A stretch of 20,512 bases of DNA, taken from Streptosporangiaceae bacterium (GTDB lineage: Bacteria; Actinomycetota; Actinomycetes; Streptosporangiales; Streptosporangiaceae). Below are positions 3,728 to 18,759 of this stretch, piece by piece. The position numbers were made by a program, and so were the translations under genes. The number at the start of each line of letters is the position of its first letter. Position 1 is the stretch's first letter. The notes below the pieces were generated by a model, which did not search any database, was not told the origin of the DNA, and saw nothing but the letters and a program-made list of their open reading frames with translations. The stretch covers positions 1 to 20,512 of the forward strand of contig JASHOI010000005.1 in the NCBI GenBank assembly GCA_030041195.1, in the 5' to 3' direction.

Positions 3728-3753
3728 GCGGCGTCTGGGCGCCGGGACGCCGC
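3728..3753 (-). terminator. Short stem-loop after the PEP-mutase-like gene
   Basis: GCGGCGTC (3728-3735) and GACGCCGC (3746-3753) form a perfect 8-bp stem with a 10-nt loop. It starts 1 nt beyond the leftward gene's stop codon. The position suggests a terminator or 3'-end-protecting hairpin; there is no T-tract. Confidence 0.5.
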
Positions 3754-3754
3754 G

Positions 3755-4588: not shown

Positions 4589-4662
4589 GCTGTTCCTTCG
4601 TCCGTTGCCGGGCCGGGCGCCGTGCCGGAAGCGTTCCCGGCGCGGCGCCGCGCCGCGGTGCC

Positions 4663-4959
4663 TCAGATGCCGACGACGAGCTGGTGGTCGAGCTCGACGA
4701 ACTCCGTGATCAGGTCGGCGAACCTCCCGGCGATGAGCTCCTTGTAGGCCGAAGAGCCGGTGTGCGCGTCGTAGGCGGCCTGGTCGGCGAAGTGCTCGAC
4801 GAACAGCAGATAATCCGGCCTGGCCGGGTCGCGGTAGACGCGGAACGACAGCGTGCCCGGCTCACTGGCCGGCCCACGGGGCGCGAACTCCTCGACGATC
4901 GCTTCGACCTCGGCCTGCCGGCCGGGCTTGAGGTTGATCGGGAACACCTTTGCCAGCAC
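4663..4959 (-). CDS. ABM-domain (antibiotic biosynthesis monooxygenase-like) small protein
   Basis: 98-residue ferredoxin-like alpha/beta barrel of the ABM / putative quinol monooxygenase type. The chain opens LVLAKVFPINLKPG, followed by the family-typical EPGTLSFRVYRDPARPDYLLFVEHF and AYDAHTGSSAYKEL. Such proteins usually dimerise and act on small aromatics or quinones without cofactors; the substrate here is unknown. An upstream TTG at 4965 is open in frame, but AGGAGG ends only about 2 nt before it and lies 8 nt before the GTG at 4959, so GTG 4959 is the better start. It is the first gene of the leftward pair with the PEP-mutase-like gene and is divergent from the Ada/AlkA-like gene. Confidence 0.85.
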   Translation of the reverse strand: MLAKVFPINLKPGRQAEVEAIVEEFAPRGPASEPGTLSFRVYRDPARPDYLLFVEHFADQAAYDAHTGSSAYKELIAGRFADLITEFVELDHQLVVGI

Positions 4960-5034
4960 GAGCAATCCCTCCTGAGTCAGGCGCAGCGATGCGCATCCGA
5001 TGCGGTCAACGATGCCGGCCGGGGCCGGGGATGT

Positions 5035-5099
5035 CTGGCCGGATCCGGACCGATGGTGCCCGGCCGCAGGCGCCCGGGATCTTGTCCGGATCCGGCCAG
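5035..5099. promoter_or_regulatory. Perfect 16-bp inverted repeat in divergent intergenic region
   Basis: CTGGCCGGATCCGGAC (5035-5050) is repeated exactly in reverse complement at 5084-5099 with a 33-nt spacer. Each arm contains the self-palindrome CCGGATCCGG. The element lies between the divergent ABM (start 4959) and Ada/AlkA-like (start 5133) genes, so it could be a dimer-of-dimers operator or a long leader stem-loop. No protein partner is established. Confidence 0.6.
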
Positions 5100-5132
5100 C
5101 GGCGCTGCCGCGCGGCGCCTATACCTGAAGAG

Positions 5133-6317
5133 GTGACCAGCTACTCGGCCGTGCTGACCACCGGGATCTACTGCCGGCCTGGCTGCGGCGCCAGGCCGCT
5201 GGCGGAGAACGTGCGCACGTTCGAGATGGCCGCGAGCGCGGAAGCGGCCGGGTTCCGGGCCTGCCTGCGCTGCCGCCCGTACCGGTCAGCGAGCCCCATC
5301 GCTTCCGGGGCGCCGGAACTCGTCTGCCGCGGAGTCCAGCTGATCATCGACGGGGTGCTGGACACCGGCACCGAGGCTTCGCTCGGGGCGCGGCTTGCGG
5401 TCTCGCCGCGGCATCTGCGGCGGATCTTCAACGACCACCTGGGCGTCACGCCCGACCATCTGGCCCGGTCGCGGCGAGCACATTTCGCCCGGCGGCTGCT
5501 CGACGACACCGACCTGAACGTGGCCGACATCGCGTTCGCGTCGGGGTTTGCCAGCCTGCGGCAGTTCAACCGGCAGATGCGCCAGGTCTTCCTTGCCTCA
5601 CCGCGCGAGCTGCGGGACCGCCGGCACCGCACCGACCGGCTGGCCGCCGACGGCGGTCTGACCATGCGGCTGCCGTTCCAGCCGCCCTTTGACTGGGATC
5701 ACATGGCGGCGCTGCTTGCCGACCGCGCCGTGCCCGGCGTGGAGTCGGTGTCCGGCCGGGTCTACCGCCGGACGATCAGCCTCGACGGCGCCCCGGGCGT
5801 GCTCGAGGTCCATCCGGGAGGACCAGATCACCTGCTGCTGCGCGCGCACCTGCCGTACTGGGAAGGGCTGATTCACGTGGCGGAACGCGCCGGCCGGATG
5901 GTCGGCGCCGACGCCGCCCCCGCGGCCCGTGCGCCGGGAGCCTGGGGCCCGTTCGAGGCGGCTGTCCAGGCCATCGTCGCCGAGGACGGCGAGCACCCCG
6001 GCGCGGCGAGCGCGCGACTTGGCCGGCTGGTGCGCCGGTTCGGCCCGCGCGTGCCGGGGCTCACCCACGGGCTCACGCACCTGTTCCCGTCTGCCGAGGT
6101 CCTGGCCGCCGCGGACCTCGGCGGCCTCGGCCTGCCCCCGGCTGCCGCCAGCAGCATCGCCGCCCTCGCCGCCGGCGTTACCCGTGGGCAGATCGCGCTC
6201 GACCACGCCGTCCCCCGGTCAGACCTGGTCGCCTCGCTGACCGCGGTGGCAGGTATCGGGCCGGCCACCGCCCAGGAGATCGCGGTACGGCTGGGCCACC
6301 GCGACCGGGCGCGCTGA
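5133..6317 (+). CDS. Ada-type Zn domain + AraC HTH + degenerate AlkA-like glycosylase
   Basis: About 394 residues. Residues 1-50 form the Ada Zn/methyl-acceptor domain (TTGIYCRPGC ... ACLRC, four Cys). Residues 60-155 are an AraC-type double HTH (LGARLAVSPRHLRRIFNDHLG; VADIAFASGFASLRQFNRQM). Next come an AlkA N-terminal-like domain (MRLPFQPPFDWDHM) and a helix-hairpin-helix glycosylase part ending at GIGPATAQEIAVRL. The chain stops about 10 residues after that hairpin. The catalytic Asp segment of AlkA (DVFLPDD in E. coli), the hairpin Trp and the usual GQQVS-type helix are missing, so base excision is doubtful while DNA binding and methyl sensing may remain. GTG 5133 fits the family N-terminus but has only a weak GAAGAG upstream; the frame is open back to 4950 (ATG at 4989 and 5031). 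Confidence 0.8.
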   Translation: MTSYSAVLTTGIYCRPGCGARPLAENVRTFEMAASAEAAGFRACLRCRPYRSASPIASGAPELVCRGVQLIIDGVLDTGTEASLGARLAVSPRHLRRIFNDHLGVTPDHLARSRRAHFARRLLDDTDLNVADIAFASGFASLRQFNRQMRQVFLASPRELRDRRHRTDRLAADGGLTMRLPFQPPFDWDHMAALLADRAVPGVESVSGRVYRRTISLDGAPGVLEVHPGGPDHLLLRAHLPYWEGLIHVAERAGRMVGADAAPAARAPGAWGPFEAAVQAIVAEDGEHPGAASARLGRLVRRFGPRVPGLTHGLTHLFPSAEVLAAADLGGLGLPPAAASSIAALAAGVTRGQIALDHAVPRSDLVASLTAVAGIGPATAQEIAVRLGHRDRAR

Positions 6318-6345
6318 GCGCCAGCGGCCGCCGGCGTTACCGGGA

Positions 6346-6387: not shown

Positions 6388-7041
6388 GTGGCACATACTC
6401 GTGTCGGCCGGGCCGGCTATCACCACGGCGACCTGCCCAACGCGCTGGCCGACGCAGCGACCGACCTGGCCCGCCGCGGCGGCCCGGAGGCGGTCGTGCT
6501 CAGGGAGGCGGCGCGCCAGGTCGGCGTCTCGGCCGCGGCCGCCTACCGGCACTACGTGGGGCACGGTGAGCTGCTGCAGGCGGTCAAGCGGCGGGCGCTC
6601 GAGTCGCTGGCCGACGCGATGCAGAACGGCCTGGACGGCGGCGAGCCGCTGCCGGATCCCGCCGCTGACGCGGTGCGCCGGTTCACGAACCTGGGCCGCG
6701 CCTACGTCGGGTTCGCGCTGACCAACCCCGGCCTGTTCCACACGGCGTTCTGCCAGCCGGGCATGGGGCGCCCCGACCGTGAGGTGAAGGCGCGGATCGA
6801 GGCCAGCCGCCCGTACCAGATCCTGTCCGGGTCGCTCGACGAACTCGTCGCCGCCGGCCTGCTCCCCGGTACCCGGCGCGGTGTTGCCTCGATCGCGTTC
6901 TGGGCGGCCGTGCACGGCCTGGCCACCCTGCTCGTCGACGGGCCGCTCGCGGCGATGAGCGAGCCGGAGCAGCGCCTGGCCATCCAGCGAACCCTGGACA
7001 TCCTCATCGAGGGCATCGGCTCGGCCCCCGGCCCCGCTTAG
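6388..7041 (+). CDS. TetR/AcrR family transcriptional regulator (WHG-type C-terminal domain)
   Basis: 217-residue one-component repressor. The N-terminal HTH (about residues 13-58) contains YHHGDLPNALADAATDL, a signature of TetR proteins with a WHG-type ligand domain, then VVLREAARQVGVSAAAAYRHYVGHGELL. The C-terminal region has FALTNPGLFHTAF and FWAAVHGLATLLVDGPL, again WHG-like. GTG 6388 is preferred over the in-frame GTG at 6367, because the latter falls inside the palindrome and would place the operator in coding sequence. It is preceded by its own putative operator and has no close partner downstream, so the target is not obvious. Similar sites stand in front of the small membrane protein gene at 9501. 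Confidence 0.88.
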   Translation: MAHTRVGRAGYHHGDLPNALADAATDLARRGGPEAVVLREAARQVGVSAAAAYRHYVGHGELLQAVKRRALESLADAMQNGLDGGEPLPDPAADAVRRFTNLGRAYVGFALTNPGLFHTAFCQPGMGRPDREVKARIEASRPYQILSGSLDELVAAGLLPGTRRGVASIAFWAAVHGLATLLVDGPLAAMSEPEQRLAIQRTLDILIEGIGSAPGPA

Positions 7042-7081
7042 CCCCGGAAAATCCCGGGAACGGGTGCGCGGGCGGCAGACT

Positions 7082-7111
7082 TGTCCATCTGGGCGGTCCG
7101 AGTTCGTCGTC
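7082..7111 (+). promoter_or_regulatory. Putative ECF-sigma-dependent promoter of the YCII-sigma pair
   Basis: TGTCCA (7083-7087 plus flank) and CGTC/CGTCGTC (7105-7111) are separated by 17 nt, about 50-60 nt ahead of the YCII start. As I recall, ECF42 sigma factors are predicted to use TGTCGA ... CGTC-type promoters upstream of their own DGPF genes, so this would be an autoregulated promoter with one -35 mismatch. Confidence 0.4.
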
Positions 7112-7168
7112 ATGGCGACCGGCCGCTGCGGACACCGGCCGTCCGGACCGTGAAACCCTGGAGGAGCC

Positions 7169-7510
7169 ATGAAGTACCTGCTGCTGATCTGCAGTGACGA
7201 GAACGCCGAGCTGACCCCCGAGGAGCAGGCGGAGATCGGGCCCACGATGGACGCCTGGCTGAAGGACGTCGACGGCCGCGGGGTCCGCCTGCTCGGCAGC
7301 CAGCTCCGCCCGGTCAGCGACGCCACCACCGTGCGGATGCGTGGCGCCGACGTGCTGGTCGCCGACGGGCCGTTCGCCGAGACCAAGGAGCAGATCGCCG
7401 GCTTCGACATCATCGAGTGCGCCGACCTCGACGAGGCGATCGACGTGGCGTCCCGGCACCCGGTGGCGAGGTTCGGGTCGATCGAGGTGAGGCCGTTCTG
7501 GACGGACTGA
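7169..7510 (+). CDS. YCII-related (DGPF) domain protein
   Basis: 113-residue protein of the YCII superfamily. It starts MKYLLLICSDE and carries the diagnostic ADGPFAETKEQIAGFDIIEC segment (about residues 72-91). Members are small dimeric ferredoxin-like proteins of unknown, possibly enzymatic, function. They are typically encoded next to ECF sigma factors, as here. ATG 7169 has GGAGGAG just upstream. The stop codon overlaps the 5' region of the sigma gene, implying translational coupling; the pair probably responds to the same signal. Confidence 0.93.
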   Translation: MKYLLLICSDENAELTPEEQAEIGPTMDAWLKDVDGRGVRLLGSQLRPVSDATTVRMRGADVLVADGPFAETKEQIAGFDIIECADLDEAIDVASRHPVARFGSIEVRPFWTD

Positions 7511-8751
7511 GCGCCGACGTCGGTGACGCCGTCGCCGAGGCGTTCCGCGAGGAATGGGGCCGCGTGGTCGCCGCCCTGATCGGGATGACCGGCGACTGGG
7601 ACCTGGCCGAGGAATGCGCGCAGGAGGCGTTCGCCAGCGCGCTGAAGACCTGGCCTCGCGACGGCGTGCCGCGCCGCCCGGGCGCCTGGCTGACCACGGT
7701 GGCGCGCAACCGCGCCCTGGACCGGCTGCGCCGCAGCGCGGCGGAGGCGGCGAAGCTGAGGGAGGTGGCCGCCTTGGCACCGGCCGACGATCCCGGCCCC
7801 GACGACGACAGCGGGATCAGGGACGACCGGCTGCGCCTGATGTTCACCTGCTGCCATCCGGCGCTGCCGCTGGAGGCCAGGGTCGCGCTCACCCTGCGCA
7901 CGCTGGCCGGCCTGACCACGGCGGAGATCGCCCGGGCGTTCCTGGTGCCGGAGCCGACGATGGCGAAGCGCCTGGTCCGGGCCAAGAACAAGATCCGTCA
8001 TGCCGGAATCCCGTACCGGGTGCCCCCCTCACACTTGTTGCCGGAACGCGTCGTCGGCGTGCTTGCCGTGCTCTACCTGCTCTTCAACGAGGGGTACGCG
8101 GCCAGCGCCGGGGCCGACCTGGTGCGCCAGGGCCTGTGCGCTGAGGCCATCCGGCTGGCCCGAGCCCTGGCCGGGCTGATGCCCGACGAGCCCGAGGCAC
8201 TCGGCCTGCTGGCGCTCATGCTGCTGCACGACTCCCGCCGCTCAGCCCGCGTGGACGCCGCCGGTGACCTGGTAACGCTGGAAGACCAGGACCGCGCCCG
8301 GTGGGACCGCACCGAGATCGACGAGGGCACCGGCGTCCTCGACGCGGCGCTGCGCCGCGGCCGCCTCGGTCCCTACCAGCTGCAGGCGGCGATCGCCGCG
8401 TGCCATGCGACGGCCCCGGACACGGCCGCAACCGACTGGGCCCAGATCGCGCTGCTGTACCGGACGCTCGGCCAGGTCGCGCCCTCGCCGGTAGTCGAGC
8501 TGAACCGGGCGGTCGCCGTGGCCATGGCCGAGGGCCCCGAGGCCGGGCTCGAGCTGGTCGCGGCGATCGAGCATTCCGGCCTGCTGAACGGCTACTACCT
8601 GCTCCCCGCCACCCGGGCCGACCTGCTCCGCCGCCTCGGCCGCCGGGCCGAGGCAGCCGCCAGCTACCGCGCGGCCCGCGACCTGGTCGCCACCGACGCC
8701 GAGCGCCGCTACCTGGACCGCCGCCTGGCCGAAACCGGCCCCCCGCCCTAA
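7417..8751 (+). CDS. ECF42-type RNA polymerase sigma factor with long C-terminal extension
   Basis: Extracytoplasmic-function sigma factor directing RNA polymerase to a small regulon. Region 2 includes DWDLAEECAQEAFASALKTW, then PGAWLTTVARNRALDRLRR. Region 4 is LRTLAGLTTAEIARAFLVPE with TMAKRLVRAKNKIR. The roughly 200-residue C-terminal DUF6596/TPR-like part (VLYLLFNEGYAAS; LYRTLGQVAPSPVVELNRAVAVAM) and the YCII neighbour point to group ECF42. GTG 7417 is the only ATG/GTG/TTG in frame before conserved region 2, giving 444 residues and a 94-bp overlap with YCII. Homology suggests translation really begins near 7498-7507, where only CTG codons exist; CTG 7507 overlaps the YCII stop as CTGA and would give 414 residues. 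Confidence 0.92.
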   Translation: MRRPRRGDRRGVPAPGGEVRVDRGEAVLDGLSADVGDAVAEAFREEWGRVVAALIGMTGDWDLAEECAQEAFASALKTWPRDGVPRRPGAWLTTVARNRALDRLRRSAAEAAKLREVAALAPADDPGPDDDSGIRDDRLRLMFTCCHPALPLEARVALTLRTLAGLTTAEIARAFLVPEPTMAKRLVRAKNKIRHAGIPYRVPPSHLLPERVVGVLAVLYLLFNEGYAASAGADLVRQGLCAEAIRLARALAGLMPDEPEALGLLALMLLHDSRRSARVDAAGDLVTLEDQDRARWDRTEIDEGTGVLDAALRRGRLGPYQLQAAIAACHATAPDTAATDWAQIALLYRTLGQVAPSPVVELNRAVAVAMAEGPEAGLELVAAIEHSGLLNGYYLLPATRADLLRRLGRRAEAAASYRAARDLVATDAERRYLDRRLAETGPPP

Positions 8752-8753
8752 CG

Positions 8754-8787
8754 CCCCGGGCGGCCCGCATCCCCCCGCCGCCCGGGG
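8754..8787 (+). terminator. Rho-independent terminator after the sigma factor gene
   Basis: CCCCGGGCGGC (8754-8764) and GCCGCCCGGGG (8777-8787) form a perfect 11-bp stem with a 12-nt loop, followed by TTCTCGTT. It begins 3 nt after the TAA stop, so it ends the YCII-sigma transcript. Confidence 0.8.
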
Positions 8788-8849
8788 TTCTCGTTGCCCC
8801 TGTGGCTACGTCGCCTCGCTGGCTGGCACTCGCCCGCCGGCCGTTACCT

Positions 8850-9190
8850 GGTTTCGGACGTTCACGGCGCTCCCGCGGCACAGTCCGGATGCCGCTCGGC
8901 TATACATATCACTCGTCCGGTAACCACATTTCAGACATATAGCCCAATAAAATGAACGGATCCCGTGATAAGTGGCGAGCCGAGGTCAAGGTGCTGCGGG
9001 TGACGGTGCGCGCGGCGCCCACCATCTGGTCGCGGGTGCCTCCAGCTACCCCGGTTTCGGACAGTCGTGGTTGGTTTCAGTAGGTGTCCGAATATCTCTC
9101 CAGCGCACAGTTACTTCGCTTGGTGATCGCATTCCGGACATATAGGCATCGGAAATGGCTGAAACGAAGGAAAAGTTGAGGGGCGAGGTG
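8850..9190. repeat. Diverged tandem duplication, two copies offset by exactly 203 bp
   Basis: Copy 1 starts at 8850 and copy 2 at 9053. Shared landmarks at identical spacing are GGTTTCGGAC (8850/9053), GTCCG (8883/9086), CATT-C-GACATATAG (8927/9130) and an AATG (8951/9154). About 60 of 111 aligned bases match without a gap. The core GTCCG/CGGAC motif recurs several times per copy, so the unit may be a duplicated regulatory region plus the start of a former small gene. Confidence 0.55.
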
Positions 9191-9255
9191 GCAGGGGAGC
9201 GGCAGTGGTCGGCGCGGCGAGGGCGGCGGAGTAGCGGCCGCTGGCGTGGGGCAGC

Positions 9256-9378
9256 GGTCGGCGGCGCAGACGCGGCAGGGCTGGCGGCGCAGACGGGGCA
9301 CCGGTCGGCGGCGCAGATGGGGCAGGGCCGACGCCGGAGACGGGGCAGCGGTTGGCGGCGCGGAGGGGGCAGGGCCGG
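9256..9378. repeat. GC-rich tandem repeat, ~23-24 bp period, about five units
   Basis: Units built on GGCGGCGCAGACGGGGCA recur at about 9260, 9283, 9307, 9330 (degenerate) and 9354. No stable coding frame is implied: translations are Arg/Gly/Pro-rich in several frames. Likely a slippage-expanded non-coding repeat. Confidence 0.6.
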
Positions 9379-9427
9379 AGGCGTTGGCGGGGTGAAGGCG
9401 GCGGCGTTGGCGCGGGCGCGGAAAATA

Positions 9428-9920: not shown

Positions 9921-10754
9921 TTAGCAGCTGGCCGTTCCCACCGGGACCGGTAACGGGCCGCTGACCGGGCCCGCCGCGGGCTGCGGGTTCAGCGGCGTGA
10001 CTTTGACCTGCAGCGTCTCCCGGTCGATCACCAGGGCGTGGCGGTTGGGCAGCGGCGTCCAGCCATCCTGGGGCCAGCCCGTTGAGGCCACGACGATGCC
10101 CGCTTCGGTCTCGAGGTAGGCGAGATCGAAGTACTGGTCCGCGGGCTGCTCGACTCCCTTGGCGGCCAGGGCGGCGTGGGGGATGCGTTCGGGCCAGTAA
10201 TAACAGACCGCGTACAGCGCGTCAGGAGTAAGGAGCACCGCGTTCAGGCTGTTCGGCGAGAACATCTGCCCGATGCGGGCGGTCGTGTGCTCGAACGCGG
10301 TGATGATGTCGCTGCCCGCCTCGAGGCCGGACATCACGTGCAGGAAGTAACGCTCGCTGTCGGTGGTGCCGGTGAGGCGGCGCTCCCAGGCCGGCGGCAG
10401 CAGCTCACCGAGCCGGTCCTGGGGGTGGATCGCGCCGTTGTGCGCCATCGCCACGTCGCCGCGGCGGAACGGGTGTGTGTTGCGGGCCTCGACCGCCAGG
10501 CCCGGGGTGGCCCCGCGGAGGTGCGCCAAGCCCAAGTTGCCGAGCCTGCGGTGGGCGAGTTCGTCGTAGTGGGCCGAGTCCGACGCCCGCAGCAGCGACT
10601 TCTCGACGTGCACCTGGTCGGCTTCGTACCAGGCAACGCCCCAGCCGTCGGCGTTGAATTTCGACAGCCGGGTGAACTCGCGCAGGCCGTGCTCGCCGAT
10701 GATCTCGGCGAGCGAGACGTCGGCCCTCGCGCAGTACCCAAGTAGGCGGCACAT
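9921..10754 (-). CDS. Class II glutamine amidotransferase-like protein (EgtC/YafJ type)
   Basis: 277-residue N-terminal-nucleophile (Ntn) hydrolase. The chain starts MCRLLGY, so Cys2 becomes the catalytic N-terminal residue after Met removal. Further class II glutaminase signatures are FNADGWGVAWY, AHLRGATPG, NTHPF, MAHNGAI and TTDSERYFLHV. There is no synthetase partner domain. Family members such as EgtC cleave a gamma-glutamyl amide bond, so a gamma-glutamyl hydrolase role is plausible here given the glutamine-synthetase-like gene nearby; this is inference. ATG 10754 lies 15 nt downstream of the SDR stop, so it is probably the last gene of the leftward operon, but it also has its own possible leaderless promoter. 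Confidence 0.9.
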   Translation of the reverse strand: MCRLLGYCARADVSLAEIIGEHGLREFTRLSKFNADGWGVAWYEADQVHVEKSLLRASDSAHYDELAHRRLGNLGLAHLRGATPGLAVEARNTHPFRRGDVAMAHNGAIHPQDRLGELLPPAWERRLTGTTDSERYFLHVMSGLEAGSDIITAFEHTTARIGQMFSPNSLNAVLLTPDALYAVCYYWPERIPHAALAAKGVEQPADQYFDLAYLETEAGIVVASTGWPQDGWTPLPNRHALVIDRETLQVKVTPLNPQPAAGPVSGPLPVPVGTASC

Positions 10755-10757
10755 GTC

Positions 10758-10768
10758 CAGAAATATAC
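10758..10768 (-). promoter_or_regulatory. Possible leaderless -10 box before the amidotransferase gene
   Basis: On the minus strand the SDR stop is followed by an A+T-rich AGTATATTTCTGGAC directly before ATG 10754. TATATT ends about 7 nt before the start codon and no Shine-Dalgarno is present, as in leaderless transcripts. No good -35 is visible, so this internal promoter is tentative. Confidence 0.3.
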
Positions 10769-10769
10769 T

Positions 10770-11552
10770 CTATAGATACTTTCCCATACCGCCAGCCACA
10801 TCAATCGAGGCGCCGGTGATGTAGCTCGCCCGGTCGCTGGCGAGGAACGCCACGATGCCGGCTACCTCGTCCGGGCGGCCGAACCGGCCGAGCGGGACCT
10901 CGGCGGCAGCCAGCTGCCCGAAGAACTCCTCGGCCGGCGTGTCCGGCGCGCGCCTGCGGTGGATGTTCTCCCACTGCGGCGTGGTGACGAAGCCGATGTT
11001 CACGCTGTTGACCAGGATCCCCTCGGGTCCCAGCTCCATCGCCAGCGCCTTGGCCAGGCCCAGGCACGAGGCCCGGTTGACCGACGTGGCGAAGAACGCC
11101 GGGTCCGGGTAGCGCCCGTACACCGCGTTCACGTTGATGACCCGCGGGGCCCGGCTCTGCCGCAGCAGCGGCAGCGCCGCGCGCGTGCAGCGGACCTGCG
11201 ACATCACCTTGACCTCGAAGTCACCCTCGAGATCGGCGTCGGCCAGCGTCTCGAACCGGCCGGGCCGCGCGGCGCCCGCGTTGTTGACCAGGATGTCGAT
11301 CCCGCCGAGGGCGGACGCGGATTCCTTGATGAACGCGGTCACCTGCTCGGGATCGGTGACGTCGCAACGTAGCGCGAGTATGGTTCCGCCAGACTTGCGC
11401 AGCTCGGCGGCGGTCGCTTCAAGCTCGGCGTCGTTGCGGGAGCAGATGACGACCTGCGCCTCCTCGGCGAGGAGCTCGGCGGCGATCGCCTTGCCCAGTC
11501 CCTTGGACCCGCCGGTGACGACCGCACGGCGGCCGGACAGGCCGAGGTCCAT
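10770..11552 (-). CDS. SDR-fold protein lacking the catalytic tetrad
   Basis: 260-residue short-chain dehydrogenase fold. The nucleotide site is intact (TGGSKGLG, residues 13-20; CDVTD 63-67; NNAG 90-93) and the C-terminal substrate loop and closing segment YITGASIDVAGG are normal. The catalytic residues are not. Aligned to FabG-type enzymes, the Asn is Lys115, the Ser is Ala143 (NVNAVYG), the Tyr is Thr156 and the Lys is Arg160 (FATSVNRAS). Ordinary hydride transfer is therefore doubtful; it may bind NAD(P) for another reaction or be a regulatory or structural paralogue. ATG 11552 follows the cupin stop directly (TAGATG), indicating translational coupling inside the aminotransferase-cupin-SDR operon. 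Confidence 0.9.
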   Translation of the reverse strand: MDLGLSGRRAVVTGGSKGLGKAIAAELLAEEAQVVICSRNDAELEATAAELRKSGGTILALRCDVTDPEQVTAFIKESASALGGIDILVNNAGAARPGRFETLADADLEGDFEVKVMSQVRCTRAALPLLRQSRAPRVINVNAVYGRYPDPAFFATSVNRASCLGLAKALAMELGPEGILVNSVNIGFVTTPQWENIHRRRAPDTPAEEFFGQLAAAEVPLGRFGRPDEVAGIVAFLASDRASYITGASIDVAGGMGKYL

Positions 11553-11996
11553 CTACTCGCCTGCCTGGCCGTCGGCCGCGGCCGCCCCCGCCCCGGCTGC
11601 CTGTGCCTCGGCCAGCGCCAGCAGGGTCTTGCGCGGCGGGCAGAACACGTCCACCTCCAGGCAGGTGGTGTCCGTCGTCCAGGCGCCGTGCGGCACCCAG
11701 GCCGGGATCACGGCGACGTCGCCCTTGCGCATCGTGCGCACGTCACCGTCGATGTCGAACGTCATCTCCCCGTCCAGGATGATCACGATCTGCTCTTCCT
11801 CGTGCACGTGCTTGGGCGCCTCGGCCCCCTGCTCGAAGTGCACGAAGTTGGTCATCACGCCGTCGCCGAGTACCGGCCGGAACGTCAGGCCGGGCACGAA
11901 CTCCGCCGACGCGATGTCATCGATGCGCACGTAGCGGCCGGGGCCCGAGGGCTCGCCCTGCGCCTCGGTGGTGAAGTGCGCGGCAGCGTCGGTCAT
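11553..11996 (-). CDS. Cupin-domain protein
   Basis: 147-residue single-domain cupin. Motif 1 reads KHVHEEEQIVIILDGEM (two His and Glu as metal ligands). Motif 2 reads GDVAVIPAWVPHGA with the fourth ligand His. It could be a small metal-dependent dioxygenase, isomerase or ligand-binding protein; substrate unknown. The C-terminus is an Ala/Gly-rich tail (AQAAGAGAAAADGQAGE). ATG 11996 overlaps the aminotransferase stop as ATGA, with GGAGGG in the end of that gene as ribosome site. This places it second in the leftward operon. Confidence 0.9.
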   Translation of the reverse strand: MTDAAAHFTTEAQGEPSGPGRYVRIDDIASAEFVPGLTFRPVLGDGVMTNFVHFEQGAEAPKHVHEEEQIVIILDGEMTFDIDGDVRTMRKGDVAVIPAWVPHGAWTTDTTCLEVDVFCPPRKTLLALAEAQAAGAGAAAADGQAGE

Positions 11997-13210
11997 GTTC
12001 CCTCCAGTGCGGTCCGGACGAGGTCCCCGAGCCGCCGGGCACCCTCGTCGATGAGTTCGTCGCTGACCCGGCTGTAGGCCAGACGCATCTGGGCGGCCCC
12101 GTCGGGGCCGGGGTAGAACGGCCGGCCGGGCACGTAGGCCACCTTGAGGGCGCTGGCCGCCGGTGAGAGCGCCACGGTGTCCACCCGGTCCGGCGCGGTG
12201 ACCCAGGTGAAGAAGCCGCCGCGCGGCGAGGTCCAGCTCGTGCCCTCGGGCATGTGCGCCTGCAGGGCCTTGGCCATCAACTCGGCGCGGCGCGCGTACA
12301 GCGCGCGGGATGCGACGAGCTGGCGGTCGAGGTGGCCGGCGCGCCCGTATTCCTCGAGCATCCGCTGGCCGAGCGCACCCGAGCACTGGTCGGAGTTCTG
12401 CTTGGCGGTGATCAGCTGCGCGATGACCTCGGGCGGCCCGGCCGCCCAGCCGAGCCTGACGCCGGGGAAGAAGGTCTTGGAGAACGTGCCGGCCTGAATC
12501 ACCACGTCGGGCGCTGCCGACCACAGACTCGGCGGCGCGATGCCCTCGAAGCCGAGTTCCCGGTACGCGACGTCCTCCAGAATCAGGAAGTGGTACCGGC
12601 GGGCCAGGTCGACCAGCTCGGCCCGGCGGCCGGGAGCCATGGACAGCCCGGTCGGATTCTGGTGATCGGGGATCGTGTACAGCAGCTTGGGCCGCAGCCC
12701 GGTGCCGAGCAGGTCGGCGAGCACGTCGACCCGCATCCCGTCGCCGTCCATGGGAATGCCGTGCAGGTCCGCCTCGTAGCCGCGGAACGCCATGATCGCG
12801 CCGAGGTAGGTCGGCGCCTCGACCACGACCGCGTCGCCGGTGTCCACGATGCTCTTGGCGACGAGTTCCATGCAGTCGATCCCGCCGCTGGTGACCATCA
12901 GCTCGCCCGGCGCCGGGCGCCGGCCCTGATGGGATTCCAGCCGGCCGGCCAGGTAATCGCGCAGGCCCGGCAGCCCCTCGGTGGGGGAGTACTGCAGCGC
13001 GACGGCCACGTCCTCGGCGATCAGCTTGGTCGCGATCTCCCCGAGCACCTCGCTGGGGAACGTCGCGGGATCCGGGAAGCCGCCCGAGAACGTGATCACG
13101 TCGGTGGCCCCGGCCAGGGAGAGGATCGCGGTGATCTCGCCACCGCCCAGCGTTTGCGTCCGGCGGGCGAAGCTCGCGGTCCAGTCACGCAGCTCCGGTG
13201 CGGCGGTCAT
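11993..13210 (-). CDS. PLP-dependent aminotransferase, class I/II (2-aminoadipate/MocR-like fold)
   Basis: 405-residue fold-type I aminotransferase. The PLP lysine is Lys245 in GTFSKTFFPGVRLGW. Other cofactor residues are Asn185 in PDHQNPTG, Asp213 and Tyr216 in EDVAYRELGF, and Arg252. The N-terminal DVITFSGGFPDPATFP and LQYSPTEGLPGLRDYL are typical of the LysN/2-aminoadipate and MocR catalytic-domain group, but there is no GntR HTH. It would exchange the amino group of an amino acid or amine-derived substrate with a 2-oxo acid. ATG 13210 has GGGAGG about 5 nt upstream. It is the first gene of the leftward operon and divergent from the Lrp gene, which probably controls it. Confidence 0.93.
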   Translation of the reverse strand: MTAAPELRDWTASFARRTQTLGGGEITAILSLAGATDVITFSGGFPDPATFPSEVLGEIATKLIAEDVAVALQYSPTEGLPGLRDYLAGRLESHQGRRPAPGELMVTSGGIDCMELVAKSIVDTGDAVVVEAPTYLGAIMAFRGYEADLHGIPMDGDGMRVDVLADLLGTGLRPKLLYTIPDHQNPTGLSMAPGRRAELVDLARRYHFLILEDVAYRELGFEGIAPPSLWSAAPDVVIQAGTFSKTFFPGVRLGWAAGPPEVIAQLITAKQNSDQCSGALGQRMLEEYGRAGHLDRQLVASRALYARRAELMAKALQAHMPEGTSWTSPRGGFFTWVTAPDRVDTVALSPAASALKVAYVPGRPFYPGPDGAAQMRLAYSRVSDELIDEGARRLGDLVRTALEGT

Positions 13211-13243
13211 CCGTGCCTCCCGATTTGTCGATACTGATCACTC

Positions 13244-13317
13244 TTGACACGGGCCCTGGCAAACGTAAGAATTCTCGGGACGAGGATATACATTTGCTCG
13301 GATCTTCCTCTGATAAT
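13244..13317 (+). promoter_or_regulatory. A+T-rich divergent control region with promoter(s) and dyad
   Basis: The 147-bp gap between the aminotransferase and Lrp starts is markedly A+T-rich. It holds a perfect TTGACA (13244-13249) with AAGAAT 17 nt later (13267-13272), and a second possible -10, GATAAT (13312-13317). The inverted repeat GCAAACGTA (13259-13267) / TACATTTGC (13289-13297), 8 of 9 matching, flanks the first -10 and is a plausible Lrp-family operator for both directions. Confidence 0.45.
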
Positions 13318-13357
13318 ACCCGAGATCAGCAACCTTCTCACCAGAGATATCTGCCAA

Positions 13358-13957
13358 TTGACAACCTACGCACCGCTCGCACGGCTCGCCGAAGTCGCCT
13401 CGCCGTCGCCCGAGAGGGTCGAGGTAGACGACCTCGACCTCACCCTGCTCCGGGCGCTGGCGGCCGACGCCCGCCAGTCCCAGCGCGCGCTCGCCCGCGC
13501 GGTCGGCATGTCGCCGCCCGCGATCGCCGACCGGCTGGCCCGGCTGGAACGCGCCGGCGCGATCCGCGGCTACCGGGTGGAGCTGGACTGGGCGGCGCTC
13601 GGCTACCCGGTCGTGGTCTACCTGGCGGTGACCGCGAACCCGGGGATGGACCTCAGCGAGATCGTCCGCGAGATCAGGGCGCTGCCCGAGGCCCAGGACA
13701 TGAGCGTGGTCACCGGCGCCTTTGACCTGCTGGTACGGTTGCGGGTCCGGGACCACACCCACCTTCGCGAGCTGCTGCTGAACACGATCTTCCAGATTCC
13801 CGGCGTCCAGCGCACGGAGACCTTCCTGTCGCTCGCCGACGCCGAGCCCGACAACTTCGCCGAAGCCCTGCTCGACCAGATGAGCCAGCTGGGCCACCTG
13901 GGCCAGCTCGGCCAGCGGGGCAGATCCGGCGACAAGGCCAGGGGCAGCCAGCCCTGA
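13358..13957 (+). CDS. Lrp/AsnC family transcriptional regulator
   Basis: About 199 residues. The AsnC-type winged HTH is DDLDLTLLRALAADARQSQR followed by ALARAVGMSPPAIADRLARLERAGAIRGYRVELD. A RAM/AsnC ligand-binding domain follows (YLAVTANPGM ... VVTGAFDLLVRLRVRDHTHL ... GVQRTETFLSLA). Such proteins usually sense an amino acid and act locally on divergent genes. The frame is open from 13244, but that codon is the -35 box itself. The TTG at 13358 gives a chain of normal family length, though its ribosome site is weak. The C-terminus carries an unusual Gln/Leu/Gly-repetitive tail (QLGHLGQLGQRG). It is the first gene of the rightward operon, 47 nt before the ligase gene. Confidence 0.88.
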   Translation: MTTYAPLARLAEVASPSPERVEVDDLDLTLLRALAADARQSQRALARAVGMSPPAIADRLARLERAGAIRGYRVELDWAALGYPVVVYLAVTANPGMDLSEIVREIRALPEAQDMSVVTGAFDLLVRLRVRDHTHLRELLLNTIFQIPGVQRTETFLSLADAEPDNFAEALLDQMSQLGHLGQLGQRGRSGDKARGSQP

Positions 13958-14004
13958 GGCACACCCGGCCAGGACCTGATTACCGATTAGGAGTGCACCC
14001 CAAA

Positions 14005-15534
14005 GTGAGCACCGCATCCCCAGAGCACCCCGACGAGCGGGTCACGACAACCGCGGGCGTCGGCCAGCCCGGCTTCATCGCGCGGCATGACCTGTACAGC
14101 GACCGGCAGGCCAGCGCCGCGGACCTGGTTGCCGCGCGGATCAGCGAACTGGACCTGCGCACCGTGCGGTTCGTGGTGGTAGACCAGCATGGCGTTCCGC
14201 GCAGCAAGTCGCTCTCCGCTGACGCCGCGCTGGCCGTGCTGGCCAACGGGCTCGACTTCTCCGGGGCGATCTACAGCCTGGACACGGGCAATAACGTGTT
14301 CGTCCCCGCGTTCGCCCAGGGCGGCGGGTTCGGCATCGAGGAGTTCACCGGCTTCCCCGACGTCGTGCTGGTGCCCGACCCCACCACGTTCCAGGTGCTG
14401 CCGTGGGCGGACCGGACCGGGTGGATACTCTGCGACGTCTACTTCTCCAACGGCCAGCCGATGCCGCTGGACGGCCGCGGCCTGATGCGCCGCGCCCTCG
14501 CCGACCTGGGCGACGCCGGCTACGACTACCTGGCCGGGATCGAGATCGAGTACTACATCGTCAAGCTCGAGTCGGACCTGATCACGCCGCAGAACGCCGG
14601 GTTCACCCCGCCGCCCCCGCCGGTGAGCGTGTTCGAGCGCGGCTACCAGTACCTGTCCGAGGTGCGCCTGGACAGCGTGACCGGCACGCTCGAGGCGATC
14701 AGGGACGCGCTGTGGGGTGTCGGGCTGCCGCCGCGGGCCATGGAGGACGAGTGGGGCCCGGGCCAGATGGAGTTCAGCTTCAGCCCGATTGGCGGGCTGG
14801 CCGCGGCCGACGCGGCCGTGCTGTTCCGGTCCGCGGTGAAGCAGGTCTGCCAGCGCCGCGGCCTGCTGGCCACGTTCATGTGCCGGCCCGGGCTGCCGAA
14901 CTTCTTCTCGTCCGGCTGGCACCTGCACCAGTCGCTGGTTTCCCGCCAGGACGGCAGCAACGCCTTCGCCAGCGAGAGCGAGCCGCTGTCGACCCTCGGC
15001 CGGCAGTACGTGGCCGGGCTGGTCGAGCACGCGCTGCCGATGATGCCGTTCTCCACCCCGACCGTGAACGGGTACAAGCGCTACCGCCCGTACTCGTTCG
15101 CCCCGGACCGGGTGTGCTGGGCGGTGGAGAACCGCGGCGCGATGGTGCGGGTCCAGGGCGCGCCCGGCGACACCAGCAGCCACGTGGAGATGCGGATCGG
15201 CGAGCCAGCGGCCAATCCGTACCTCTACATGGCCGCCAACATCGCGGCCGGCCTCGACGGGATCCGCCGCGGGCTCGAGCCGCCGCCCCCGGTCGAGGCG
15301 GATCCCTACGCCGCCGAAGCGCCGATGCTGCCCACGTCGCTGGCTGACGCGGTCAGCGCGCTCGACGCCGACAAGTTCTACCGCCAGGCGTTCGGCGACA
15401 CCCTGGTCGACTACCTGCTGCAGATGAAGCGCGCCGAGCTGAAGCGCTACGAGACGGCGGTGGCGGAGAACCCGCCGCCCGAGGGGCAGGACGTCAGCGA
15501 CTGGGAGATGCGCGAGTACTTCGAGTTCTTCTGA
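14005..15534 (+). CDS. Glutamine synthetase family protein (gamma-glutamyl ligase-like)
   Basis: About 509 residues with the glutamine synthetase fold: a beta-grasp N-terminus (about 45-150; VRFVVVDQHGVPRSKSL), then the ATP/glutamate catalytic domain. Key segments are GIEIEYYIV, EDEWGPGQMEFSF, GWHLHQSL, NGYKRYRP, ENRGAMVRVQG and HVEMRIGEPAANPYLYMA. No adenylylation-loop consensus is evident, and the setting is catabolic rather than nitrogen-assimilatory. It is therefore more likely a gamma-glutamyl-amine or amide ligase (compare PuuA, IpuC, AtdA1) than GlnA. GTG 14005 has TAGGAG about 11 nt upstream; GTG 13993 overlaps that site. Genes on both sides are tightly spaced (47 and 29 nt). Confidence 0.92.
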   Translation: MSTASPEHPDERVTTTAGVGQPGFIARHDLYSDRQASAADLVAARISELDLRTVRFVVVDQHGVPRSKSLSADAALAVLANGLDFSGAIYSLDTGNNVFVPAFAQGGGFGIEEFTGFPDVVLVPDPTTFQVLPWADRTGWILCDVYFSNGQPMPLDGRGLMRRALADLGDAGYDYLAGIEIEYYIVKLESDLITPQNAGFTPPPPPVSVFERGYQYLSEVRLDSVTGTLEAIRDALWGVGLPPRAMEDEWGPGQMEFSFSPIGGLAAADAAVLFRSAVKQVCQRRGLLATFMCRPGLPNFFSSGWHLHQSLVSRQDGSNAFASESEPLSTLGRQYVAGLVEHALPMMPFSTPTVNGYKRYRPYSFAPDRVCWAVENRGAMVRVQGAPGDTSSHVEMRIGEPAANPYLYMAANIAAGLDGIRRGLEPPPPVEADPYAAEAPMLPTSLADAVSALDADKFYRQAFGDTLVDYLLQMKRAELKRYETAVAENPPPEGQDVSDWEMREYFEFF

Positions 15535-15563
15535 GCAAAACCATCGACACTGACGGAGCCACG

Positions 15564-15908
15564 GTGACCCTGCAGCACATCGTCCTGTTCAGCTTCCCCC
15601 GCCCGCTCAGCGAGCAGGACGCGGCCGCGATGCGAGCGATGGTGGCGAGCTGGCCGAGCGAGATCGGGCTGATGACCAAGTGCCGGTTCGGCACCGACCT
15701 GACCCGGGAACGCAACCGCGGCTACGGCTACCTGCTCTACACCGAGTTCCCCGACACTGACACGCTGCGCGAGTACCAGGACCACCCGGTGCACGTGCGG
15801 TTCCGTAACTGGCTCGTGGAGCGCGAGTGCACGCCGCTCGCGTTCGACTACTACCTCGACGACGGCACCGTTTTGATGGCCGAGCCCGATTCCGCAGCCC
15901 GGAAGTGA
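15564..15908 (+). CDS. Dabb (stress-responsive A/B barrel) domain protein
   Basis: 114-residue dimeric alpha/beta barrel domain. It opens MTLQHIVLFSFPRPLSEQ with the conserved early His and hydrophobic strand, and has YGYLLYTEFPDTDTLREYQDHPVHVRF, the most conserved Dabb stretch. Such domains often occur in catabolic clusters as small-molecule-binding or cofactor-free enzymes. GTG 15564 is supported by GGAG 5-6 nt upstream. It sits between the ligase gene (29 nt) and the permease gene (20 nt), so it is clearly part of that operon and probably handles the same substrate family. Confidence 0.9.
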   Translation: MTLQHIVLFSFPRPLSEQDAAAMRAMVASWPSEIGLMTKCRFGTDLTRERNRGYGYLLYTEFPDTDTLREYQDHPVHVRFRNWLVERECTPLAFDYYLDDGTVLMAEPDSAARK

Positions 15909-15928
15909 AGTTAGGGAGGGCACCACCC

Positions 15929-17437
15929 ATGGCAGATACCGACCGCAGCAGCCTGGCCGTCGCGACCGGCCAGGACGAGCTGGCGCACGGCTCGCTCAGG
16001 ATCTGGGATGCCATCGCGATCTCGGTCTCGGTCATCGCACCGGGAATGGCGATGCTGCTGAACGTTTCCGGCGTCGCGATCGTGGCCGGCGGGTCGACTC
16101 CGCTGGCGTTCCTGCTCGGCGGCATCGCGTGCCTGGCGCTGGCGTTCGTGGTGATCGGCTTCACCCGGCGGATGGCGTCGGCGGGCTACGCCTACACCTA
16201 TGCCAGCCGCAGCCTGGGCAAGGAGGGCGGGTTCATGGCCGGCTGGCTGTATTTCGCCGGCATGATCTGCTTCGTGCCGATGACGATGTCCGGGGTCGGC
16301 TACCTGGCCGCGAACCTGCTCGGCCTGAACCCCAACTGGTGGATCCTGTTCTTCTTCCTCGGCATGGCGCTGCTGGTGGTGCTGTCGATCGTGCGGATCA
16401 AGGTCACCACCCGGACCCAGCTCGTCGTCGGCGTCATCACCGTCGCCGTGATCGTGATCGTCGACCTGGTCACCACCGCCAAGGGCGGCGTGCACGGCCA
16501 GGCCCTGTCCGCGTTCAGCTTCTCGCACACGGTCAGCGGCGGGTTCAACGGCGTGTTCTACGGCATCATCCTGGGCGTCACCTCCTACATCGGGTTCGAG
16601 ACCGCCGCCGACTTCGGCGAGGAGACCGCCAACCCGCGGCGGTACATCCCGATCGCGATCATCGCGGCGACCGTGTTCGCGGTGATCTTCTACCTGTGGA
16701 CCACCTACGCGATGGCCATCGGCTTCGGCGTGAAGAACGGCGCGGCCTGGGGCGCCGACCCGGTAGCCCTGCAGACGATCGCGAACAAGTTCCTCACCCC
16801 GTGGGTGGGCACGCTGGTCGAGGTCGGCGGGCTGGCCGCGGCGTTCATCGTGTGCGTGGCCTGCGCGACCGCCGGGTCGCGGACGCTGTTCGCGATGGGC
16901 CGCGAGGGCGTGCTGCCCAGGGCGTTCGCGCACACCCACCCGAGGTTCAAGACGCCGGTCAACGCGACGCTGGCGGTGGTCGCGGTCGCGATCGTGATGG
17001 CGCTGCTGATCGGCTACCCGCTGTCGGACAGCGCGTTCGGCGAGCCGTTCAGCAACTACTACTTCTGGGCCACCCTGGGCACCCTGCTGATCATCGTGGT
17101 CTACATCATGATCTGCATCGGCGGCATCATGTTCTTCCACCGCACCAGGAGCACCCGCAAGTGGAACCCCCTGGTGCACGTGCTGATCCCGGTGATCGGC
17201 GCCGTGGTGTTCGGCGCCGCGCTGTACGGCTCGGTGCACCCCACCCCGCCCGGCATCCTTAAGTGGACCCCGTACCTGGCCATCATCTGGCTGGTGCTCG
17301 GTATCGGCGTCGTGCTCTGGCTGCGCTCCAACCGCCCGGACTCGGTGGCCCGCATCGGCTCCATCCTCGGCGAGGAGGGCGGCACGGACGCGGCGCTGCT
17401 CGACGAGGAGCAGCCGCCGCCGGCCCCGGCCAGGTAG
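15929..17437 (+). CDS. APC superfamily amino acid/amine permease
   Basis: 502-residue integral membrane transporter with about 12 hydrophobic helices starting near residue 25 (AIAISVSVIAPGMAML). Visible family marks are GGSTPLAFLLGGIACLALAF, the TM5-6 region with SYIGFETAADFGEETANPRR, and AGSRTLFAMGREGVLPRAF. Uptake of an amino acid or amine by proton or sodium symport, or exchange, is expected. ATG 15929 has GGGAGGG about 8 nt upstream. It is the last gene of the Lrp-ligase-Dabb-permease operon and would supply the substrate. The 3' end, including the stop codon, has been duplicated into the adjacent non-coding DNA (see repeat). Confidence 0.94.
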   Translation: MADTDRSSLAVATGQDELAHGSLRIWDAIAISVSVIAPGMAMLLNVSGVAIVAGGSTPLAFLLGGIACLALAFVVIGFTRRMASAGYAYTYASRSLGKEGGFMAGWLYFAGMICFVPMTMSGVGYLAANLLGLNPNWWILFFFLGMALLVVLSIVRIKVTTRTQLVVGVITVAVIVIVDLVTTAKGGVHGQALSAFSFSHTVSGGFNGVFYGIILGVTSYIGFETAADFGEETANPRRYIPIAIIAATVFAVIFYLWTTYAMAIGFGVKNGAAWGADPVALQTIANKFLTPWVGTLVEVGGLAAAFIVCVACATAGSRTLFAMGREGVLPRAFAHTHPRFKTPVNATLAVVAVAIVMALLIGYPLSDSAFGEPFSNYYFWATLGTLLIIVVYIMICIGGIMFFHRTRSTRKWNPLVHVLIPVIGAVVFGAALYGSVHPTPPGILKWTPYLAIIWLVLGIGVVLWLRSNRPDSVARIGSILGEEGGTDAALLDEEQPPPAPAR

Positions 17438-17524: not shown

Positions 17525-18694
17525 TTAGTTGCGCGCTCCCGGGATCGGGTCGCGCAGCAGCGCGGCGACCCGGTCCCTGGGCAGCGCCGGGACGCGGTGG
17601 CCGTCGCGGCCGGTCATGTCCTCGTTGGCGACGAGCGCGTTGGCCACGGCCTCCTCGGTGGCCTGGACCACGGCCGCGTAGAAGGGGTTGATCAAGCCCC
17701 ACGGCACGAACCGCAGCTGGTCGTAGCGCTCGGGCACCGCGCCGAGCATCACCTCGCCGCCGGGCGTGAACGCGCCGGGGTTGCCGGTGGAGAACGCGAG
17801 GAACAGGTCTCCGGAGAAGTGCGAGCCGGTGGTGCCGGTGCGGGCCAGCCCGAGCGTGACCCGGCGGGCGAGCGCCGCGGTTTGGTGCGGGAGCAGCGGC
17901 GCGTCGGTGCCGACGATCGCGATCACCGAGCCCGCGCCGGCCTGGCCACCGGGGCTGGCCTGCGTGGCGGACGATCGCTCGTCATCGGCGAGCAGCTCGC
18001 CGAGCGGCAGCCCGGCCAGCGTGAGTTCCTGCCTGCCGCCGAAATTGGCCTGCACGAACACGCCGACGGTATAGGTGGTTCCGGCGAAGCTCAGCACCCG
18101 GGAGGCGGTGCCGTTGCCGCCCTTGAACCCGTAGCAGATCATGCCGGTTCCGCCGCCGGCCGAGCCCTCCTCCACCGGCCCGGACGCCGCCGCCTGCAGC
18201 GCGTCCAGGCAGTCCTGCTCGGTGACGCTCCGCGTGTTGATGTCGTTGAGGTAACCGTCCCAGGTTTCGCCGACAACCGGCAGCAGCCAGGCCTCGGCGA
18301 GCCGGGGGTGATGACGCGCCACCCAGGCCACGATCGCGGCGTGCGCGATCCCGACCGCGTGGGTGTTGGTGATCGCCACCGGGCCGGCGAACGTGCCGGA
18401 TTCCCGGATCCAGGACACGCCGGTCATCTCCCCGTTGCCGTTCTGGGAGAAGAAGCCCGCGGCCACCGGGTCGGCGGCGCCGGCCGCGCCGCGGGGATGG
18501 ATCGCGGTCACCCCGGTGCGCACCGACGTGCCGCGGATCAGCGTCGTCCAGCCGACCTCCACCCCGGGCACGTCGGTGATCGCGTTCCACGCGCCCGGCG
18601 TGCCGCCGAACGGTATCCCGAGCGACCGGGCGCGCGGCTTGCCCGAGGGCGTCGCCGCGTGCGCTCCCGGGAGCCCCGAACCCGCCTCTGGCAT
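17525..18694 (-). CDS. P1 family peptidase (DmpA-like L-aminopeptidase/D-esterase)
   Basis: 389-residue Ntn-like hydrolase of family S58 (DmpA, BapA). It folds as a precursor and cleaves itself before the nucleophilic serine. Here the site is Gly255-Ser256 in AGAGSVIAIVGTDAPLLPHQ, matching Gly249-Ser250 of DmpA. Other family marks are SLGIPFGGTPGAWNAITDVPGVEVG at the N-terminus, GPVAITNTHAVG, the glycine-rich GGGTGMICYGFKGG and LGLARTGTTGSHFSGDLFLAFST. It releases N-terminal residues from small peptides, amides or esters, including D- or beta-amino acids in some members. ATG 18694 has GGGAGG 8 nt upstream; the frame is open to 18730. No signal peptide is seen. It converges on the permease operon. 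Confidence 0.94.
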   Translation of the reverse strand: MPEAGSGLPGAHAATPSGKPRARSLGIPFGGTPGAWNAITDVPGVEVGWTTLIRGTSVRTGVTAIHPRGAAGAADPVAAGFFSQNGNGEMTGVSWIRESGTFAGPVAITNTHAVGIAHAAIVAWVARHHPRLAEAWLLPVVGETWDGYLNDINTRSVTEQDCLDALQAAASGPVEEGSAGGGTGMICYGFKGGNGTASRVLSFAGTTYTVGVFVQANFGGRQELTLAGLPLGELLADDERSSATQASPGGQAGAGSVIAIVGTDAPLLPHQTAALARRVTLGLARTGTTGSHFSGDLFLAFSTGNPGAFTPGGEVMLGAVPERYDQLRFVPWGLINPFYAAVVQATEEAVANALVANEDMTGRDGHRVPALPRDRVAALLRDPIPGARN

Positions 18695-18759
18695 GGCGCC
18701 ATCCTCCCATCCGTCCGGTACCCGGCACATCCGGTGTGCGCGGGCGCTTGATCATGGTG

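Follow-up and report, generated by a model that had tools for sequence, protein, structure and literature searches.

In silico analysis of a 20,512-nt stretch of DNA (hereafter the window; contig JASHOI010000005.1 of assembly GCA_030041195.1, an uncultivated Streptosporangiaceae bacterium) distinguished eight genes (9921..17437), arranged in two divergent arms flanking one Lrp regulator, which, taken as a whole scheme and in outline, on balance probably constitute a single Lrp-controlled pathway for the masking of a substrate with glutamate. In a more specific and more tentative form, held at slightly less than even confidence, this would be an undescribed masking pathway of Actinomycetota and Dormibacterota, composed of a ligase of the glutamyl-organic-amine synthase (GoaS) type and an EgtC-like N-terminal nucleophile (Ntn) hydrolase placed around an atypical short-chain dehydrogenase/reductase (SDR), a 3-His/1-Gln cupin and a His-Tyr-His dimeric alpha/beta barrel (Dabb) protein, whose conserved steps would persist even where unrelated proteins take the place of both transaminase and hydrolase. 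Direct support was obtained for the gene content, the linkage, the active-site residues, and the predicted folds of the Ntn and Dabb proteins.

As a way of handling amines, gamma-glutamylation is general among bacteria, and many glutamine synthetase (GS)-like ligases have no known substrate; at least 7,940 relatives were found at E <= 1e-60 in one search. With the window ligase linked, in two phyla, to a definite and conserved group of partners, its substrate becomes findable. Should the proposed roles be true, the locus would provide (i) a second role for Ntn hydrolases of the EgtC type, (ii) a bacterial setting for the unexplained ligase-amidohydrolase partnership of FluG, and (iii) a system for learning the function of SDR proteins devoid of catalytic residues. 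Judging from alignments and profile matches, the new elements are an SDR protein lacking the catalytic Tyr and Lys in all aligned copies, the replacement in some relatives of the transaminase and, apparently, of the hydrolase, and a FluG-type amidohydrolase as a frequent member. An earlier note on this DNA had not recognised the arrangement from any described pathway, and the searched literature, with subscription journals mostly outside its coverage, likewise yielded no description of the gene set or of an Ntn/EgtC-type hydrolase in a GS-like amine pathway. The amidoligase neighbourhood survey of Iyer and colleagues (2009), cited in PMC6478659, may mention parts of the gene set.

The GS-like ligase and the putative deglutamylase

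The ligase gene (14005..15534, + strand) starts with GTG (alternative start at 13993), has AGGAG at 13989-13993 on its 5' side and follows the Lrp gene after a gap of 47 nt. Its product, in which Gln-synt domains were the only domains found (Gln-synt_C, 277 bits), is very probably an enzyme of the GoaS type. All 10 checked positions that we take to be metal and glutamate ligands are kept (Glu184, Glu186, Glu253, Glu260, His310, Arg363, Arg381, Arg386, Glu399 and Arg401). Ser90 and Phe369 occupy the positions of StGS Asp50 and of the flap glutamate, which we take to be Glu327; aligned GlnA rows retain Asp and Glu there. These are the two residues by which glutamine synthetase acts on ammonia.

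Among solved structures the ligase is best matched by chain 8wwu (463 bits), which is NpaA1, the glutamylating enzyme for 1-naphthylamine (PMC11335346). Sequence identity amounts to 45% with NpaA1, 29% with GlnA of E. coli and 26% with PuuA. PMC11335346 gives the amine-site Glu232/Glu234 and an extra "15th motif" loop as GoaS features, and Trp235 as a gate residue of NpaA1. In the window ligase these residues are kept as Glu251/Glu253/Trp254, as is Phe86 of NpaA1, and the loop is present (FSGAIYSLDTGNNV, aligned to NpaA1 68-81), so that the Gln-synt_C domain with its ligands, the loss of Asp50 and the flap Glu, the 15th-motif loop and the amine-site Glu pair were all found. The lost flap residue is printed as Glu357 in PMC11335346; because that position is kept both in NpaA1 and in the window ligase (Glu399), we read the residue meant as Glu327.

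NpaA1 and AtdA1 (gamma-glutamyl-1-naphthylamine and gamma-glutamylanilide synthase, respectively; GoaS group) are among the closest described counterparts, the loss of Asp50 and the flap Glu being common to NpaA1 and the ligase. Val201, Phe75 and Met81 of NpaA1 are nevertheless replaced by Tyr220, Leu96 and Val102, and the ligase pocket is therefore probably unlike that of NpaA1. An aromatic amine dioxygenase pathway was considered and rejected, as no Rieske, Fer2 or other ring-hydroxylating dioxygenase domain was found among the scanned window ORFs (open reading frames). In Caballeronia/Burkholderia (L032-L034; loci and genomes are designated L and G throughout), a ligase relative lies between genes for a Rieske oxygenase and for a ferredoxin and reductase (domains scanned in L032), an arrangement resembling the aniline-dioxygenase locus.

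That the protein is an ordinary, ammonia-using glutamine synthetase, with which it shares the catalytic domain and a conserved glutamate/metal site, is extremely unlikely. Equivalents of Asp50 and the flap Glu are absent, the scores lie below the NCBIfam cut-offs for type I GS (221 vs 429 bits) and type III GS (235 vs 470 bits), and in 4/5 checked genomes with a ligase relative a further sequence shares 52-55% identity with GlnA of E. coli (in the fifth, G005, the GlnA-like match is only partial, 34%). The earlier note had made its proposal depend on the ligase not behaving as an ordinary GS; the ligase residues follow the active-site pattern of gamma-glutamyl-organic-amine ligases, with both ammonia-activating acids lost. 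The cut-off for gamma-glutamylputrescine synthetase (NF045547) is not reached either (253 vs 650 bits).

In the ligase tree, built without L025, L033, L034 and six paralogue rows (partial or repeated) and without L038 and L039 (below the identity/length filter), the cluster-bearing loci fall within one group of 31 rows (support 93/85, slightly short of the firm-support mark). The same group holds a sub-clade (support 96/94) accompanied instead by an extracytoplasmic function (ECF) sigma factor, TauE and, in part, a class I glutamine amidotransferase (GATase). In a sister group of the ligase (L014, L015, L016, L017 and L022), apparently another glutamylation locus, a TauE-type exporter occurs in 5/5, an ECF sigma factor with a SnoaL-like domain in 4/5 and a class I GATase in 3/5.

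The glutamyl-removing step is assigned to the product of the last gene of the left arm (9921..10754, - strand; 15-nt gap to the SDR gene), a class II (Ntn) glutamine-amidotransferase-like protein and proposed gamma-glutamyl amide hydrolase. Its nearest solved relative, by sequence and by predicted fold, is EgtC of ergothioneine biosynthesis, the structures of which were solved with glutamine and with the natural substrate. The Ntn fold with an N-terminal Cys nucleophile is present in the window protein, and Cys2 and the other checked residues are conserved (15 distinct loci). The score is nonetheless below the EgtC equivalog cut-off (TIGR03442; 75.1 vs 218.65 bits), and, unlike the setting of EgtC, no egt-type genes were recognised among the Pfam matches of the window. 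At L009 this GATase is the sole one of the seven partners adjoining the ligase. The suggestion of the earlier note holds as regards an EgtC-like protein with a conserved nucleophile; the predicted role of this protein as the deglutamylase of the pathway is best called likely.

A profile survey of 48 loci bears on a different assignment, in which removal of the glutamyl group would fall to a FluG-type amidohydrolase, to a class I GATase or to some gamma-glutamyl hydrolase of general function, leaving the EgtC-like protein with a different task such as ammonia supply or side-product clearance. A FluG-N/2qpx-like amidohydrolase is a frequent extra member (14/48 loci, 7 of these without a class II GATase by profile), and class I GATases were found in 6/48 loci, both in favour of this assignment, which we consider unlikely. 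Neither a FluG-type amidohydrolase nor a class I GATase was found in the window by Pfam scan of the ORFs and by profiles; class II GATases (17/48 loci) and class I GATases never occur together, as expected of substitutes; and one of the 7 loci, L110, has a diverged GATase_4 gene that was missed by profile. The only solved match of the L018 amidohydrolase is 2qpx, the best match of the N-terminal part of FluG according to PMC6478659. The pairing of ligase and amidohydrolase in cluster relatives recalls FluG, described there as a fungal fusion of an amidohydrolase and a GS-like protein. In the relatives, unlike FluG, the amidohydrolase is encoded by a separate gene, and the window ligase carries no fused Amidohydro_2 domain.

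Co-occurrence and variation of the gene set

A collection of species genomes was scanned for relatives of the ligase, and the 39 loci obtained were searched with profiles for all seven partner families up to 10 kb on either side; many loci are short contigs of metagenome-assembled genomes, which makes absences weak. At least four of the seven families were found near the ligase in 16/39 loci, and all seven in 5/39 (L002, L005, L018, L020 and L023). Fewer occur at L027 (three), L019 (two), L006 (one, the permease) and L009 (one, the GATase).

Linkage was also approached through the SDR protein. Among 297 sampled genomes belonging to a single family (SDR at E <= 1e-80, ligase at E <= 1e-120; the top 8 or top 5 candidates per genome scored), the SDR was found in 11 genomes and the ligase in 21. 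The ligase was present in 11/11 SDR-positive and 10/286 SDR-negative genomes (Fisher p = 1.1e-14, a value overstating independence, as the genomes are related and the centre genome, one of the 11, was chosen for its cluster). Both genes lie on one contig in 9/11 genomes (in G409 with a second, 53% identical ligase); in G430 and G496 contig ends fall inside the cluster. Beyond the family, the SDR was found in 6/151 genomes of the phylum sample around L018 (Candidatus Dormiibacterota label), in 3/198 genomes of another class sample and in 1/394 genomes of the class-wide sample, the last being the centre genome itself. Among the nine genomes of the first two samples, G003, G658 and G660 are the sources of L018, L026 and L028, and the remaining six were found by the SDR alone; 5/6 of these carry the ligase within a few kb, and G881 has a 52% SDR relative without ligase or partners. 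G655, G656, G658, G659 and G660 were first found through the ligase, and the independent linkage test consists of the other six genomes. The cluster occurs in two phyla, Actinomycetota and Dormibacterota, and is patchy and rare outside a few lineages. Co-occurrence of the two arms in other genomes, on which the earlier note had made its proposal depend, is thereby borne out by the 16 loci with at least four partners and the 11 SDR-positive genomes with a ligase.

Two unrelated operons sharing merely the intergenic region and the Lrp regulator would also give divergently transcribed arms. As such an explanation would allow, some members of the set are separated from the ligase, or the gene order is rearranged, at L012, L021, L023 and L026, and the ligase of L019 is accompanied by the regulator and the aminotransferase only. 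It is highly improbable all the same: the shuffled orders retain largely the same gene set, at L028 the regulator, aminotransferase, cupin, SDR and GATase genes follow the ligase on one strand, and the co-occurrence (p = 1e-14, in related genomes that are not independent) points the same way.

Members of other families stand in for the transaminase, and apparently also for the hydrolase, in some relatives. At L107-L110 no class I/II aminotransferase of the cluster family was found, and a class IV transaminase, which in L110 passes the curated ilvE cut-off, adjoins the SDR. In L023 and L027 the class II GATase gene is followed, in the same orientation, by a gene for an ilvE-type class IV transaminase; the L023 protein passes the ilvE-II cut-off and is additional to the class I/II aminotransferase. 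A GATase-transaminase fusion in L023 was rejected, as two separate ORFs are present. A carboxymuconolactone-decarboxylase-family gene lies between the amidohydrolase and ilvE-type transaminase genes of L110 (5890-6294; Dormibacterota variant).

Proposed pathway and resemblance to known systems

In the proposed pathway, the APC permease would import a small amine, amino alcohol or non-standard amino acid; the ligase would couple the amino group of the substrate to the gamma-carboxyl of glutamate at the expense of ATP; the cupin, SDR-fold and Dabb proteins would carry out chemistry on the masked compound; the EgtC-like hydrolase would free glutamate; and the aminotransferase would swap an alpha-amino group with 2-oxoglutarate, its more likely substrate being the amino acid freed in the final stage and its less likely one the masked amino acid. 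This order is drawn by analogy with the Puu pathway of E. coli, where PuuE acts on freed gamma-aminobutyrate. The substrate would be small or aliphatic rather than bulky and aromatic.

The cluster resembles known amine-degradation routes, with a different enzyme set. Like Puu (PuuA, B, C, D, E, P, R), it would combine a permease, a ligase, oxidation, a gamma-glutamyl hydrolase, an aminotransferase and a regulator in divergent operons; unlike Puu, its ligase is only 26% identical to PuuA, its regulator is of the Lrp type, SDR, cupin and Dabb proteins stand in place of PuuB and PuuC, and its putative hydrolase is a class II Ntn protein, whereas PuuD is a class I gamma-glutamyl hydrolase. The GlnA4 ethanolamine cluster of Streptomyces, as presented in PMC6529630, likewise contains an actinobacterial GS-like ligase, an SDR, a permease (in several species), a regulator and a glutamine-amidotransferase gene. 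It differs in naming an aldehyde dehydrogenase, none of which was found in the window, and in a legend that, unlike the window, includes no aminotransferase, cupin, Dabb or Lrp. A permease, which the earlier note had counted among the parts of known routes, is confirmed for Puu and for the ethanolamine cluster, the two systems in which it was checked.

The gene of the SDR-fold protein (adh_short_C2; 10770..11552, - strand) adjoins the cupin gene with a 0-nt gap. The protein, whose best solved relative is Q9HYA2 (3lf1), retains TGxxxGxG and NNAG, and has Ala143, Thr156 and Arg160 where, by manual comparison with FabG, we place the catalytic Ser, Tyr and Lys. The alignments of the SDR, cupin and aminotransferase hold 26 rows, of which 7 repeat the same genomes (L040, L041, L044-L048), leaving 19 distinct loci (15 for the GATase). 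TGxxxGxG is present in 26/26 SDR rows, in all of which Tyr is replaced by Thr/Ser and Lys by Arg; Ser is replaced by Ala in 25 and kept in L018. The protein is thus probably not a classical dehydrogenase.

The Cupin_2 gene (11553..11996, - strand) overlaps the aminotransferase gene by ATGA (11993-11996), and its product conserves a 3-His/1-Gln set at the expected metal site (His63, His65, Gln69 and His103). The class I/II aminotransferase (Aminotran_1_2; 11993..13210, - strand) belongs to the multi-substrate/2-aminoadipate (LysN)/kynurenine group, with Ser244-Lys245 (the pyridoxal phosphate lysine) invariant in 26/26 rows. In the right arm, the Dabb gene (15564..15908, + strand) follows the ligase gene after 29 nt, and conserved His5, Tyr71 and His77 of its product correspond to His5, Tyr72 and His78 of OAC. 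The gene of the APC-superfamily amino acid/amine permease (15929..17437, + strand) lies a further 20 nt downstream; in L003 and L004 another AA_permease_2 protein is encoded after the ligase. A link to hydroxynitrile lyases (cupin 25 bits to (R)-mandelonitrile lyase vs a cut-off of 140; predicted Dabb fold near PeHNL) was too weak to use.

Several observations weigh against the masking pathway as drawn. None of the seven partners was found in 19/39 ligase loci (weak generic matches in L039 counted as none), and a ligase 81% identical to that of the window stands at L006 with the permease alone, from which it follows that this ligase functions in further contexts as well. The class II GATase was absent by profile near the ligase in L021, L026, L107, L109 and L110; the genomes of L021 and L026 encode GATase relatives (37-38%) on other contigs. 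A dehydrogenase step is doubtful, since the SDR lacks the catalytic residues. We infer every reaction, the order of steps, the direction (uptake and breakdown) and the substrate class, and the trio of aminotransferase, cupin and SDR also fits a biosynthetic reading. Of the gamma-glutamylation pathway put forward earlier, the ligase pattern, the EgtC-like Ntn protein and the linkage in two phyla stand; its substrate, step order and catabolic direction keep the standing of proposals.

Under the biosynthetic reading, the aminotransferase, cupin and SDR would build an unusual amino acid, the ligase would attach it to glutamate, giving a form for storage, protection or export, the Ntn protein would trim off the glutamyl group, and the permease would export or exchange the product. 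The model is bacilysin, for which BacF, BacB and BacG perform such a construction. In favour count butirosin biosynthesis, which also employs masking and unmasking by gamma-glutamylation, and two matches, both weak or generic: the cupin to BacB (its third-best solved match, 39 bits) and the SDR to YwfH (119 bits, one of 686 SDR matches). No gene for a prephenate decarboxylase, ATP-grasp protein or other exporter was found among the Pfam matches of the scanned window ORFs, the transaminase can be of the ilvE type, and an APC permease suggests uptake; we regard biosynthesis as rather unlikely, and uptake with breakdown through a masked intermediate as the preferred scheme.

Layout, control region and genomic context

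The eight genes, their order, the gaps of 47, 29 and 20 nt in one arm, and the ATGA overlap and gaps of 0 and 15 nt in the other are as given in the earlier note, and so are the families of all eight products, each above its Pfam cut-off (GATase_4, adh_short_C2, Cupin_2, Aminotran_1_2, AsnC_trans_reg, Gln-synt_C, Dabb and AA_permease_2). The Lrp/AsnC regulator (13358..13957, + strand) was assigned a TTG start at 13358 by alignment with relatives, instead of the longest-ORF start at 13244, which leaves a divergent regulatory region of 147 nt (13211..13357) between the aminotransferase and Lrp starts.

Promoter-like boxes in this region are TTGACA (13244-13249) and AAGAAT (13267-13272), 17 nt apart, on the + strand, and GTGAGA (13341-13336) and TATTAT (13318-13313) on the - strand; the TTGACA box is present in 11/11 aligned loci. 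Several relatives carry the palindrome CTTACAAATGTAAG in the spacer separating -35 from -10. L002 and L007 have exact copies; a single mismatch is present in L004, L005 and L010, two are present in L003, and the copies of L030, L025 and the window (13256-13269) are degenerate. As a candidate Lrp operator it is a lead only, because the window copy is degenerate and a general search for palindromes with 9-nt arms in the window region gave no excess over shuffled sequences. Another palindrome, around the -35 box (13226-13249), was rejected, as it is not conserved in L025 or other aligned loci.

Compared with the close relative L025, the window contains two extra blocks (3722-6338 and 7033-9422), the flanks of which align to near-adjacent stretches of L025; encoded there are a protein of the PEP-mutase family together with one of the AlkA/Ada type, and an ECF sigma factor together with DUF6596. 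Membership of the PEP-mutase, AlkA/Ada and ECF sigma genes in the pathway was rejected, since L025 does not have them at those places. A role in anti-phage defence was likewise rejected, six window proteins being without a PADLOC match.

Directly downstream of the permease gene, and convergent with it, lies a gene for a peptidase of family S58 (17525-18730), which among the loci compared for neighbours was found near the ligase in L001 only. L001 (1-4825) holds a second ligase copy; it comes from the assembly that also contains L025, and the two overlap over 896 nt with 90.5% identity. There the S58 peptidase gene follows the ligase as in the window, but the intervening Dabb and permease genes were not found, which reflects either a strain mixture or a real deletion.

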